From the NCBI RefSeq assembly GCF_000186865.1, contig NW_008705572.1:393384-457383 (forward strand): a stretch of 64,000 bases of DNA. Direction: 5' to 3'. Below the pieces are notes generated by a model. It had not been told where the DNA came from and did no database searches. It saw only the letters and a program-made list of their open reading frames with translations. Below, piece after piece: positions 17,840 through 21,133 of this stretch (its first letter is position 1; every line of letters starts with the position of its first letter). A program made the translations under genes and the position numbers. The DNA is from Aureococcus anophagefferens (lineage: Eukaryota; Sar; Pelagophyceae; Pelagomonadales; Pelagomonadaceae).

Positions 17840-18579
17840 ATGATCCGCCATTTGCTGCTCCTCGTCGCCGGCGCGTCGGCGGCCGACAAGGTCAACGTGA
17901 CCGCGTACTGCTCGAGCCTGTGAGGGCACTGCCGGGAGTCGGCTCTGGCTCTCGGCGAACACGTCTTTAGTGTGGAGGGGCTGCCCGACGTCGTCGATTA
18001 CACGACCCACTTCATGGGCGACTGGACCGGCGCCGGCGCGTGCACGTCCCACCCAGCGTCCTGTGGCCGTGAAAAATCGTTACCGTCATGCTTGGTAGGT
18101 CCCACCACGGCTCGCAGTGCTGCTACGCCGACGCGGCCAACCTCGCCGCGGCCCACGTCGTGGACTCGGGCAAGTCGTGGGCCTTCACGCGCTGCATGTT
18201 CGCGAGCCAAAAGGCCCTCTGCCCGAAGACCTGGGACGACGGCAAGCAGGAGTGCGGCACGGAGGCCTACGACGCCGCGAGCTTTCGCAACGTGTCGGCG
18301 GCGTGCGCGGCGGCCGCGGGCTTCGCGGACGCCGAGGTCGCCAAGCTGGTGGACGCGGTCGGCGCGCTGGCGCCGGGCGACTGGGTCCACGACGCGCTCG
18401 TCGCGGACTACGCCTATACGACATCCCACAACCCGGGCAGCCCGCACCCGGGCTGGGTCGTCGTCGACGGCGAGTTCGTCGACTCCGGCAAGTACGACCC
18501 GGACGGAGAGGACTGGGCCAAGGCCGTCGTCGCCAAGGTCTGCGCGAGCTACGGCGGCGCGGCGCCCGCGGGCTGCTAG
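17840..18579 (+). CDS. Selenocysteine-containing GILT-like thiol reductase
   Basis: Two exons, 17840-18045 and 18099-18579, give 228 aa if the TGA at 17921-17923 (codon 28) is read as selenocysteine. A signal peptide (MIRHLLLLVAGASA) precedes VNVTAYCSSL-U-GHC: the U-x-x-C sits where GILT (gamma-interferon-inducible lysosomal thiol reductase) family members have the catalytic C-x-x-C after a V-x-x-Y-x-x-x-L strand. The second exon supplies the HHGSQCC...N block matching the GILT H-G-x-x-E-C-x-x-N signature and paired cysteines. A good SECIS hairpin lies 41 bp past the stop. Without recoding the gene would encode only 27 residues, yet coding quality continues. The start is 96 bp from the divergent hydrolase start. 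Expected: disulfide reduction in a lysosome/vacuole or secretory compartment. Confidence 0.85.
18046..18106 (+). mobile_element. 53-bp intron with 8-bp flanking duplication (introner-like)
   Basis: Intron 18046-18098 starts with GTCCCACC and is followed by an identical GTCCCACC (18099-18106), so donor and first exon base relate exactly as in the introner insertions here. The 45-bp insert (18054-18098, ends CAGCG...TTGGTAG) has no clear terminal inverted repeat and no family core. Splicing GT-AG keeps the frame (A-C-T-S-H-H-G-S). Confidence 0.7.
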
Positions 18580-18620
18580 GGACCGCCATCGAGCACGCCG
18601 CCGCCCCGGCCGGCGAGGCA

Positions 18621-18682
18621 GAGCGCCCGGATGACGGCCGCGCGGGGAACTCCGCCTCGCGCGGCCCGACCGAGGGCGCGCC
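18621..18682 (+). promoter_or_regulatory. SECIS element in 3' UTR of the GILT-like selenoprotein
   Basis: Stem I pairs GCGCCC (18623-18628) with GGGCGC (18674-18679). The non-canonical quartet is ATGA (18631-18634) facing GA (18668-18669). Stem II pairs GGCCGCGCG (18636-18644) with CGCGCGGCC (18658-18666), nine perfect pairs. The apical loop carries the unpaired AA (18648-18649), 13 nt after the ATGA. This matches eukaryotic SECIS architecture, which recruits SBP2 and eEFSec to insert selenocysteine at UGA. Confidence 0.85.
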
Positions 18683-18805
18683 CGCCGTTCCGGGGCGGTC
18701 ACGTCTAAGCGAACTTCCTGGATGGTCGGTTATTGGGGTGGGGCGAGAGGCCGAGAAGCTCCCCGGAGCCGGGGCCCGCGACGCGGTCCTCGCGGGTCGC
18801 GGCGC

Positions 18806-19901
18806 TCAGACGTCGCCGACCTGGCCGCCGCCCTCGGCGTTGCTCGCCTCGACGTCGACGGCGTTGTCGGACGTCCAGAGCGTGAGGTTGTCGCGGAGGA
18901 GCTGCATGATGAGCGTCGAGTCCTTGTAGGACTCCTCGGAGAGCGTGTCGAGCTCGGCGATCGCGTCGTCGAAGGCCTGCTTCGCGATGTGGCACGCGCG
19001 GTCCGGCGAGTTGAGGATCTCGTAGTAGAAGACGGAGAAGTTGAGGGCGAGGCCGAGGCGGATGGGGTGCGTCGGGGGCAGGTCCTTGTTCGCGATGCGC
19101 GACGCCTCCTGGTACGCGTCGAGCGCGTCGGACGACGACTTGTTCCGGACCTCGCTGGCCTGGAACTCGGCGAGGTAGCGGTGGTAGTCGCCCTTCATCT
19201 TGTAGTAGAAGACCTTGCCCTCGTCGCCGACGGAGTTGGGGATGAGCTGCGTCGCGATGATCTTGAGGATGTCCGCGCCTGCGGGTTTCGTCGCGTTTCG
19301 TTTTTTATGGGGGGGGTTCCGTTCGGGGGCGCCGCGGCGCGCAGATGGTCTCGAGCTCCGTCTCGATCTTCTTCTTGTAGGACGTGATCATCGCGGTCTT
19401 CTCCGAGTCGCTCTTCGCCTCGATAGAAGAGATCACGCGCCACGACGCGCGGCGGGAGCCGATGACGTTCTTGTACGCGACCGAGAGCAGGTTCCGCTCC
19501 TCGACGGAGAGCTCCTCCGAGTAGCCCGCGACGGTCTTCATGTGCTCGACCTACACGCATTTCGAGGGTTCTTGTCTTTGTTTTGTTTTTCGCGAGTTCG
19601 TCCCCGCCCCGGTTTTTTCGCGCGCGTCGTCGCGGCGCGCGGCGGCTCGGGCTCGGGCTTCGCCGGGGCGGGCTCGGACCCGCCGTGACGGGCTCGGGCC
19701 CGGCCCGCGAAACCCCCCCGCCGTCGACGAACGCGCACTCCTCGAGCGCGCGCCATCGGGGCCGTCGGGGGCGCCGTCGGCGCCCGCGTCTCGCGCCCCC
19801 GCCCCCCTCCCCCCCGGACGCGCACTCACCATCTCGTCGAAGCGCTCGGCCTGCTCCGCGAGCTTGGCCAGGTAGACGAGGTCATCGCGCTCCTTAACCA
19901 T
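18806..19901 (-). CDS. 14-3-3 protein
   Basis: Three exons: 19830-19901, 19343-19550 and 18806-19278, giving 250 aa, the normal family length. Introns are 19551-19829 (GT-AG, donor GTGAGT) and 19279-19342 (GC-AG). Motifs: the opening [59 protein letters not shown] and the R-D-N-L-T-L-W helix before an acidic tail. It binds phosphoserine/threonine partners as a dimer in the cytosol and nucleus. Confidence 0.96.
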
Positions 19902-20029: not shown

Positions 20030-21133
20030 ATGGTGTCGCGCCGGTCCCTGCTCCTCGGCGCGGCGGCGCTCGCGACGGCCGCGGCGAAGGGCGAGGAGTC
20101 GCGGAGCGCCGACGGCGAGGTGCTCGAGGACCTGACGGGCAACCTGCTCGTGAACGGCGGCCCCGAGGTGGCGTCCATGGAGGGCTGGGACAACGTCGTC
20201 AACGGCGGCGACGGCTGGGCGGCCTACGTCGGGAACCTGACGACGTGCGAGACGGACGAGGACCCGGAATCGTGCGACGCGAATTTCAAGACGAGCTACC
20301 AGGCGTGCACGCGGTCGCAGATCGTGGCCCTGGAGGTGCCCGGCGTCGTCGACGCGGCGATGCTCGACTCGGGCACCGTCGCCGTCGTCGTCAGCGAGGA
20401 GGTGCGCGAGTTCTACGAGGTCGACAAGTTCTACATCAAGGCGGCGCTCTGCAGCGACGCGGCGTGCAAGCACAAGGTGGCGGTCTGGGACCCGTGCAAG
20501 GGCGTGTCCAAGGTGCCCACGGAGGAGAAGGCGCGCTGGTGCGAGACGCGCGGCGGCGTCGTCGACGGCTGGCACTCCCACGGCCACGCGTTCGGCGGCG
20601 AGGACGTCGCGCGGGGCGCGCGCTACGCGGAGTTCGCCGACGGCGGCGTCGACAGCGAGTACTGGACGGGCTACTGGGGGCCCTGGTTCCGCAACGCCCA
20701 CGTCGCCGTCCACGCGTCGAACCACACCTTCGCGCCGACGGCGACGCCCTACCCGACCGCGCTCGCCGTGCCGTCGCCCGAGCCGACCGCGCCGCCGTCG
20801 ACGGCCTACTGGAGCCACGACAACGACTACACCTACGGCGCCGGCGACTACGCCTACGCGACCTTCCCCACGCCCGCGCCCAAACCCCGCCACCACCGCA
20901 CGCCCGCGCCGGTCGCCGCCGCCGCCGCGCCCGCGCCCGCGCCGCCGCCGGCCAAGTCGAAGACGAGCTCCTTCGTCTTCGCCTTCGGCGCCTTCGCCAT
21001 CGTCGCCGGCTTCGGCCTCGGCTACGTCGCCCGCTGTCGGAAGCAGGACGAGCCCGCGCAGGGCCACGAGTACGCCATCGCCGGCACGACGCTCGAGGAC
21101 GACGGCGTCGAGATGCACGGCCGCATGGTCTAG
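20030..21133 (+). CDS. Type I membrane protein with F-box-associated-like (FBA) ectodomain
   Basis: 367 aa. A signal peptide (about 1-20) precedes a domain starting NLLVNGGPEVASMEGWDNVVNGGDGW. This resembles the N-L-L-x-N-x-x-x-E-G-x-x-G-W...N-G-G-D-G-W motif of the FBA/NCCRP1 beta-sandwich, with further Trp-rich strands to about residue 235. A Pro/Thr/Ala stalk leads to one transmembrane helix (about 315-337) and a short acidic tail. The FBA fold binds glycans in other proteins; here it would face outward. The domain call rests on motif resemblance. Confidence 0.65.
   Translation: MVSRRSLLLGAAALATAAAKGEESRSADGEVLEDLTGNLLVNGGPEVASMEGWDNVVNGGDGWAAYVGNLTTCETDEDPESCDANFKTSYQACTRSQIVALEVPGVVDAAMLDSGTVAVVVSEEVREFYEVDKFYIKAALCSDAACKHKVAVWDPCKGVSKVPTEEKARWCETRGGVVDGWHSHGHAFGGEDVARGARYAEFADGGVDSEYWTGYWGPWFRNAHVAVHASNHTFAPTATPYPTALAVPSPEPTAPPSTAYWSHDNDYTYGAGDYAYATFPTPAPKPRHHRTPAPVAAAAAPAPAPPPAKSKTSSFVFAFGAFAIVAGFGLGYVARCRKQDEPAQGHEYAIAGTTLEDDGVEMHGRMV

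Follow-up and report, generated by a model that had tools for sequence, protein, structure and literature searches.

Does an in-frame TGA end this gene, or does it specify the catalytic residue of a selenoprotein? The question is raised by a locus in a 64,000-nucleotide stretch of Aureococcus anophagefferens DNA (hereafter the window), where translation from the ATG at 17840 on the plus strand reads MIRHLLLLVAGASAADKVNVTAYCSSL-TGA-GHC. The TGA (17921..17923) is codon 28. As the initial annotation had pointed out, it falls on the first position of a CxxC motif, in the context AYCSSLUGHCRES, and read as selenocysteine (Sec, U) it gives the active site U28-G-H-C31 (SSLUGHC). In our assessment the gene very probably encodes a selenoprotein of the GILT superfamily, with UGA 28 decoded as Sec through a SECIS element in the 3' UTR.

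Reading frame and intron of the gene

The gene runs on the plus strand from the ATG to a TAG stop codon (17840-18579). A GC content near 0.73, a genome of 49 Mb, the introner described below and the large number of Sec genes would suit Aureococcus or a closely related alga, most likely a pelagophyte. The homologous reading in the frame of the first exon stops at about 18045, and the remainder lies in another frame that continues to the TAG at 18577-18579, so that the frame is broken unless 18046-18098 is removed as an intron. Exon 1 (17840..18045, plus strand) then carries the hydrophobic N-terminus, the UxxC motif and residues 1-68, together with the first two bases of codon 69, while exon 2 (18099..18579, plus strand) closes with the stop codon. 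The spliced protein has 228 residues, and its start, MIRHLLLLVAGASAA, is hydrophobic and resembles a signal peptide, as judged from the translation alone. The initial annotation had coding continue past the TGA into the cysteine motifs. These motifs are reached, but only after the 53-nt intron and not straight in frame. That intron had been overlooked within the span 17840-18682; given the intron and the end of the coding sequence at 18579, the span is to be read as the gene plus its 3' UTR, the latter being the portion after 18579 up to 18682. Two further genes lie nearby. On the minus strand, a convergent gene extends from 18806 to about 19541; it may encode a 14-3-3 protein, which its translation resembles, and it seems to contain a short intron near 19280-19340. 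On the plus strand, 20030-21133 holds an open reading frame of 367 residues; all ten relatives found carry PF04300, and one of them (P0022) is 99% identical.

Three GT..AG pairs, starting at 18040, 18046 or 18058 and all ending at 18098, reach SHHGSQCC in frame. The choice of 18046-18098 joins ...GAGACT to SHHGSQCCYADAANLAAAHVV... and yields ACTSHHGSQCC, a junction that is identical in the public relatives P0002, P0003 and P0004 when the proteins are compared. The body of this intron matches at least eight other places in the genome. A 16-base core is intact in six of the eight other loci (L008, L011-L015), and at four of these six core-bearing copies the same seven or more bases could be seen by eye to flank both sides of the element. 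In the window, the 8-bp sequence GTCCCACC sits on both sides, its first copy containing the GT splice site; the element itself reads CAGCGTCCTG...TTGGTAG and is internally shorter than the six core-bearing copies. Being repeated, flanked by a target duplication and bounded by GT..AG, the predicted 53-nt intron (18046..18098, plus strand) is a shortened introner with an 8-bp target duplication, and its splicing is predicted from the junction of the relatives. A frameshift caused by a sequencing error was rejected, because the insertion is a repeat that is bounded by GT..AG and flanked by a target duplication. For Aureococcus, the available text of PMC9860276 describes introners that make 8-bp target duplications; according to that text both splice sites lie within the element and 12 bp are added to the transcript, and the window intron differs from this arrangement.

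Family assignment, paralogues and public relatives

We searched the genome with the Pfam GILT family (PF03227), with both halves of the window protein and with a plant GILT. Three other GILT genes were found, namely C10 (L003/L005, SSLUGNC), C1 (L006, MAQUGPC) and C6 (L001, EALUPGC), and TGA occupies the first CxxC position in all four GILT genes. There was no Cys-form GILT among the genome matches, in a search that an intron-split gene could escape. The window protein is 49% identical to C10 over residues 1-71 and 46% identical to it over exon 2; of the residues through the TGA 8 of 15 agree, and of those beyond it 20 of 40. The C10 gene is taken to stop at TGA, where homology ceases.

With U written as C, the window protein scored 23.6 bits against PF03227, which is marginal at a cut-off of 22.4. 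C6 scored 56.3 bits; C10 (22.2) and C1 (19.7) both remained below the cut-off. GILT was the only Pfam family matched by the window protein, C10 and C6. Among solved structures, 6nwx, which we take to be mouse GILT, ranked first for C6 (E 1.1e-9) as well as for C10 (E 0.0015), and for both it was the sole solved chain below E 0.01. The segment SLUGNCR of C10 aligned on SLCGACR of 6nwx, and via C10 the UxxC of the window protein was placed on CGAC. A profile of the window protein, C10, P0003 and P0004 matched 6nwx at E 0.004, with no single stretch passing alone, and a profile of the window protein, C10, C1, C6 and the plant GILT matched it at 2.5e-24. The GILT signature is CQHGxxECxxNxxxxC. At the corresponding position the window protein reads SHHGSQCCYADAANLA, in which HG and the second Cys are kept and the first Cys, the E, the N and the last Cys are not. 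The GILT-type cysteine motifs claimed at the outset are kept in part, CQHGxxECxxN reading SHHGSQCCYAD.

These motif losses, the marginal score of the window protein and the two paralogues below the cut-off would also be expected of a selenoprotein from a different thioredoxin-like family, for example a DsbA-like one, and the top Pfam match of C1 is indeed DSBA (20.8 bits, E 0.00037, below the cut-off of 25.6), with GILT second (E 0.0011). We regard such an origin as unlikely, given that GILT is the sole Pfam family for the other three proteins, that C6 matches it so clearly and that no other solved chain reached E 0.01 for C6 and C10. The same results bear out the GILT-like identity proposed initially, and they support filing the predicted window protein as a divergent GILT.

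The public relatives of the window protein are P0002, with 96% identity, P0003 and P0004, with 65-66%, and two more. All five start after the UGA position, in a comparison of proteins taken without their DNA. Among the relatives of the C6 paralogue, of which 8 of 15 were compared, seven of the eight have no UxxC segment; the plant GILT P0017 has the segment, with Cys. Judging from the protein sequences, the UGA may well be the cause of these short starts. This agrees with the expectation that ordinary gene callers would truncate the gene, and it is a likely example of automatic gene finding losing the catalytic end of a protein. Homologues with Cys or a Sec codon at the position of codon 28 exist: TGA stands there in the three paralogues, and Cys in P0017 and, via C10, in 6nwx. 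A search for relatives in viral contigs found none.

The downstream hairpin and its counterparts in the genome

The 3' UTR contains a hairpin of the form ATGA-C-12 bp-AACTCCG-12 bp-C-GA at 18631-18669 on the plus strand, 52 nt past the stop, with a folding energy of -26.2 kcal/mol. The region 18580-18720 has a fold z-score of -3.90, and none of 200 shuffles was equally stable. The candidate SECIS core (ATGA, 12-bp helix, apical AA and GA; 18631..18669) comes from pattern scans and the fold; a longer outline with the lower helix (18620..18683, plus strand) comes from a weak, non-significant covariance-model match. We used three patterns. The strict pattern consisted of RTGA, 10-13 nt, AA, a gapless stem of at least 9 pairs with at most one mismatch, and NGA; the intermediate pattern admitted AA, CC, AC, CA or CT in the loop and two mismatches; and the flexible pattern, defined after viewing the candidate loci, did without AA or any other loop motif. 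In all three scans 18631-18669 was the sole match in the window on both strands, so the ATGA/AA/GA hairpin originally reported after the stop is present. By pattern and fold it has the form of a eukaryotic SECIS in a 3' UTR (RTGA, stem, apical AA or CC, GA).

How rare each form is by chance was gauged on shuffled versions of the window. The strict scan gave 4 matches in total in 150 dinucleotide shuffles, the intermediate scan 327 matches in 150 dinucleotide shuffles, and the flexible scan 384 matches in 100 shuffles (3.84 per window), including 66 with an energy of -26 or lower. Therefore only the strict form is rare on its own, and for the intermediate and flexible forms the weight rests on the location, 52 nt beyond the stop codon, and on the paralogues. 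A chance hairpin was rejected for these two reasons, the position past the stop and the hairpins of the paralogues.

Model-based searches gave a negative outcome. Neither the window nor the 3' UTR gave a SECIS when scanned with Rfam, and Rfam SECIS_1 had no match in the whole genome up to E 10; because the genome has many Sec-gene candidates, we judged that SECIS_1 carries no information at such a base composition. Our own covariance model, trained on five other SECIS candidates of the genome aligned with MAFFT, ranked the window hairpin 50th among 263 window matches (15.4 bits, E 0.56), not separated from the GC-rich background. When the model was run on 14 other loci, L021 scored highest, a locus whose hairpin is also that of a training sequence; for L025 and L027, the downstream hairpins scored only among the background. 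Misaligned stems are the probable reason, yet the outcome counts as a failed test.

The patterns were then applied to the flanks of other loci. The strict scan matched none of the three GILT paralogue loci, and the intermediate scan found a downstream hairpin in all three and at two of eight control loci. The flexible scan gave exactly one downstream match on the sense strand at each of 11 other TGA-bearing loci, that is, the three GILT paralogues and eight selenoprotein-family matches with a single internal TGA (GPx 3, Rdx 3, Sep15/SelM 2). All four GILT genes thus share an RTGAC-stem-CGA hairpin on the sense strand, with RTGA 24-52 nt past the stop (24-49 nt in the paralogues). As controls for the flexible scan, the antisense strand of the downstream flanks gave 0 of 18, the upstream flanks gave 0 of 18 on the antisense strand and 3 of 18 on the sense strand (L025, L026, L023), and the family matches that show no internal TGA gave a downstream hairpin in two of seven (L028, L032). 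L021 was omitted from these control groups, being another match within the gene of L024 (C60).

Some of the control hairpins have features of their own. Those at L028 and L032 lie 125 nt and 270 nt, respectively, after matches to Rdx and Sep15/SelM; as the two matches start at profile positions 11 and 16, an earlier exon may hold a Sec codon. The upstream sense hairpins at L025, L026 and L023 may lie in the 3' UTR of an adjacent gene for a selenoprotein, or may be due to chance.

Together with the window hairpin at 18631-18669, there are 12 SECIS candidates, the others being at L001, L003, L006, L018, L020, L024-L027, L030 and L031. All 12 start with RTGAC and finish with CGA, with 11-17 predicted stem pairs that are mostly G-C. 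AA occurs 9-14 nt after RTGA in only two of the 12; L025 is a third, with AA further along the predicted loop. When the arms were exchanged among the 12 elements, pairing over ten positions was 94% for an element's own arms and had a mean of 56% and a maximum of 70% for swapped arms (770 swaps), a contrast that is partly circular and gives no independent support because the scan selects paired stems. One may speculate, though we would sooner bet against it than for it, that GILT is wholly of the Sec form here and that the SECIS elements of this alga are of a lineage-specific, GC-rich RTGAC/CGA type that can mostly do without the apical AA. Four Sec-GILT genes and a series of GC-rich SECIS candidates, mostly without apical AA, would in any case make a compact natural set for tests of SECIS features.

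Proposed decoding of the UGA codon and comparison with known systems

Part of the Sec machinery, tRNA-Sec and SepSecS, is present in the genome. The Rfam tRNA-Sec model reached 73.9 bits, where the gathering score is 47, with the qualification that it also matched all 14 control genomes and was over the cut-off in five of them, and ARAGORN called a tRNA-SeC with the anticodon tca. SepSecS was found as two adjoining matches; among the 14 control genomes it was over the cut-off in three. With TGA at the same codon and a hairpin in four GILT genes, these components strengthen the original proposal of a selenoprotein with a catalytic Sec.

Could the TGA nevertheless be a true stop, in a decaying pseudogene or ahead of a downstream ATG that starts a GILT-like protein without its active site? 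The frame that is broken without the intron at 18046-18098 and the five public relatives that all start past the TGA position would fit such a gene. Yet nothing interrupts exon 2, the protein shares 96% identity with P0002, P0002-P0004 have the same spliced junction, and the residues upstream of the TGA are conserved with the C10 paralogue. Moreover, the codon in question is TGA, never TAA or TAG, in all four paralogues, each of which has a hairpin. We therefore consider a true stop very improbable. Still less credible is that UGA stands for Cys, Trp or some other residue, genome-wide or by SECIS-independent readthrough: Cys at this place would likewise give an active GILT, but SECIS-like hairpins lie behind all eight of the other TGA-bearing selenoprotein-family matches tested, tRNA-Sec and SepSecS are in the genome, and TGA is taken as the stop codon of the C10 paralogue.

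For the selenoprotein that we favour, the following course can be proposed. The 53-nt introner would be removed from the transcript of this nuclear gene, leaving an mRNA for a 228-residue protein with a signal-peptide-like start. At codon 28, tRNA-Sec(UCA) would decode UGA under the direction of the SECIS hairpin in the 3' UTR. As the nucleophile, Sec28 would attack the disulfides of substrates, and Cys31 would serve as the resolving thiol. The protein may also enter the secretory path and act as a reductase of disulfides there or in a vacuole.

The source papers for the Aureococcus selenoproteome are Gobler 2011 and 2013. A GILT selenoprotein of this kind has been reported before, both in 2008 and for Aureococcus, according to the available parts of the papers cited below; the selenoprotein reading of the initial annotation was supported, although these prior reports were left unmentioned in it. 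PMC2398784 (2008), in the text available, describes a family of eukaryotic GILT selenoproteins recovered in Global Ocean Sampling reads, with three GILT sequences from unknown organisms and a SECIS found for one. The window gene resembles that family in being a GILT with Sec, a eukaryotic 3'-UTR SECIS and an origin in a marine microbial eukaryote. It differs from the reads in that a complete gene with an intron, a genome context and three paralogues can be given, and the anonymous ocean-read family now has a full gene to go with it, whose exons, SECIS and paralogues are laid out above. In the accessible portion of PMC7539508 ('The algal selenoproteomes'), GILT is named as one of the Sec families with the narrowest distribution. 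In PMC5917014, a 'GILT superfamily protein' appears in the legend of Figure 6 as one of 35 virus-responsive Aureococcus anophagefferens selenoproteins; the family is the same, and as the identities of the genes are not given there, the link holds at the level of the family. GILT is not mentioned in the available part of PMC6627142, and no further Sec-GILT report was recognised in the literature searched, judged from the listings.

The cysteine GILT proteins of animals and plants provide the other comparison. The window protein shares with 6nwx and with Gypsophila vaccaria vseg_013276 (P0017) the CxxC region and the C-terminal W-V-V-V ... C-x-x-Y-x-G-x-x-P-x-x-C; its identity to P0017 is 22%, and P0017 has Cys at the place aligned with U28. 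Unlike these proteins, the window protein would have Sec in place of the first catalytic Cys, and its CQHGxxECxxN motif is partly lost.
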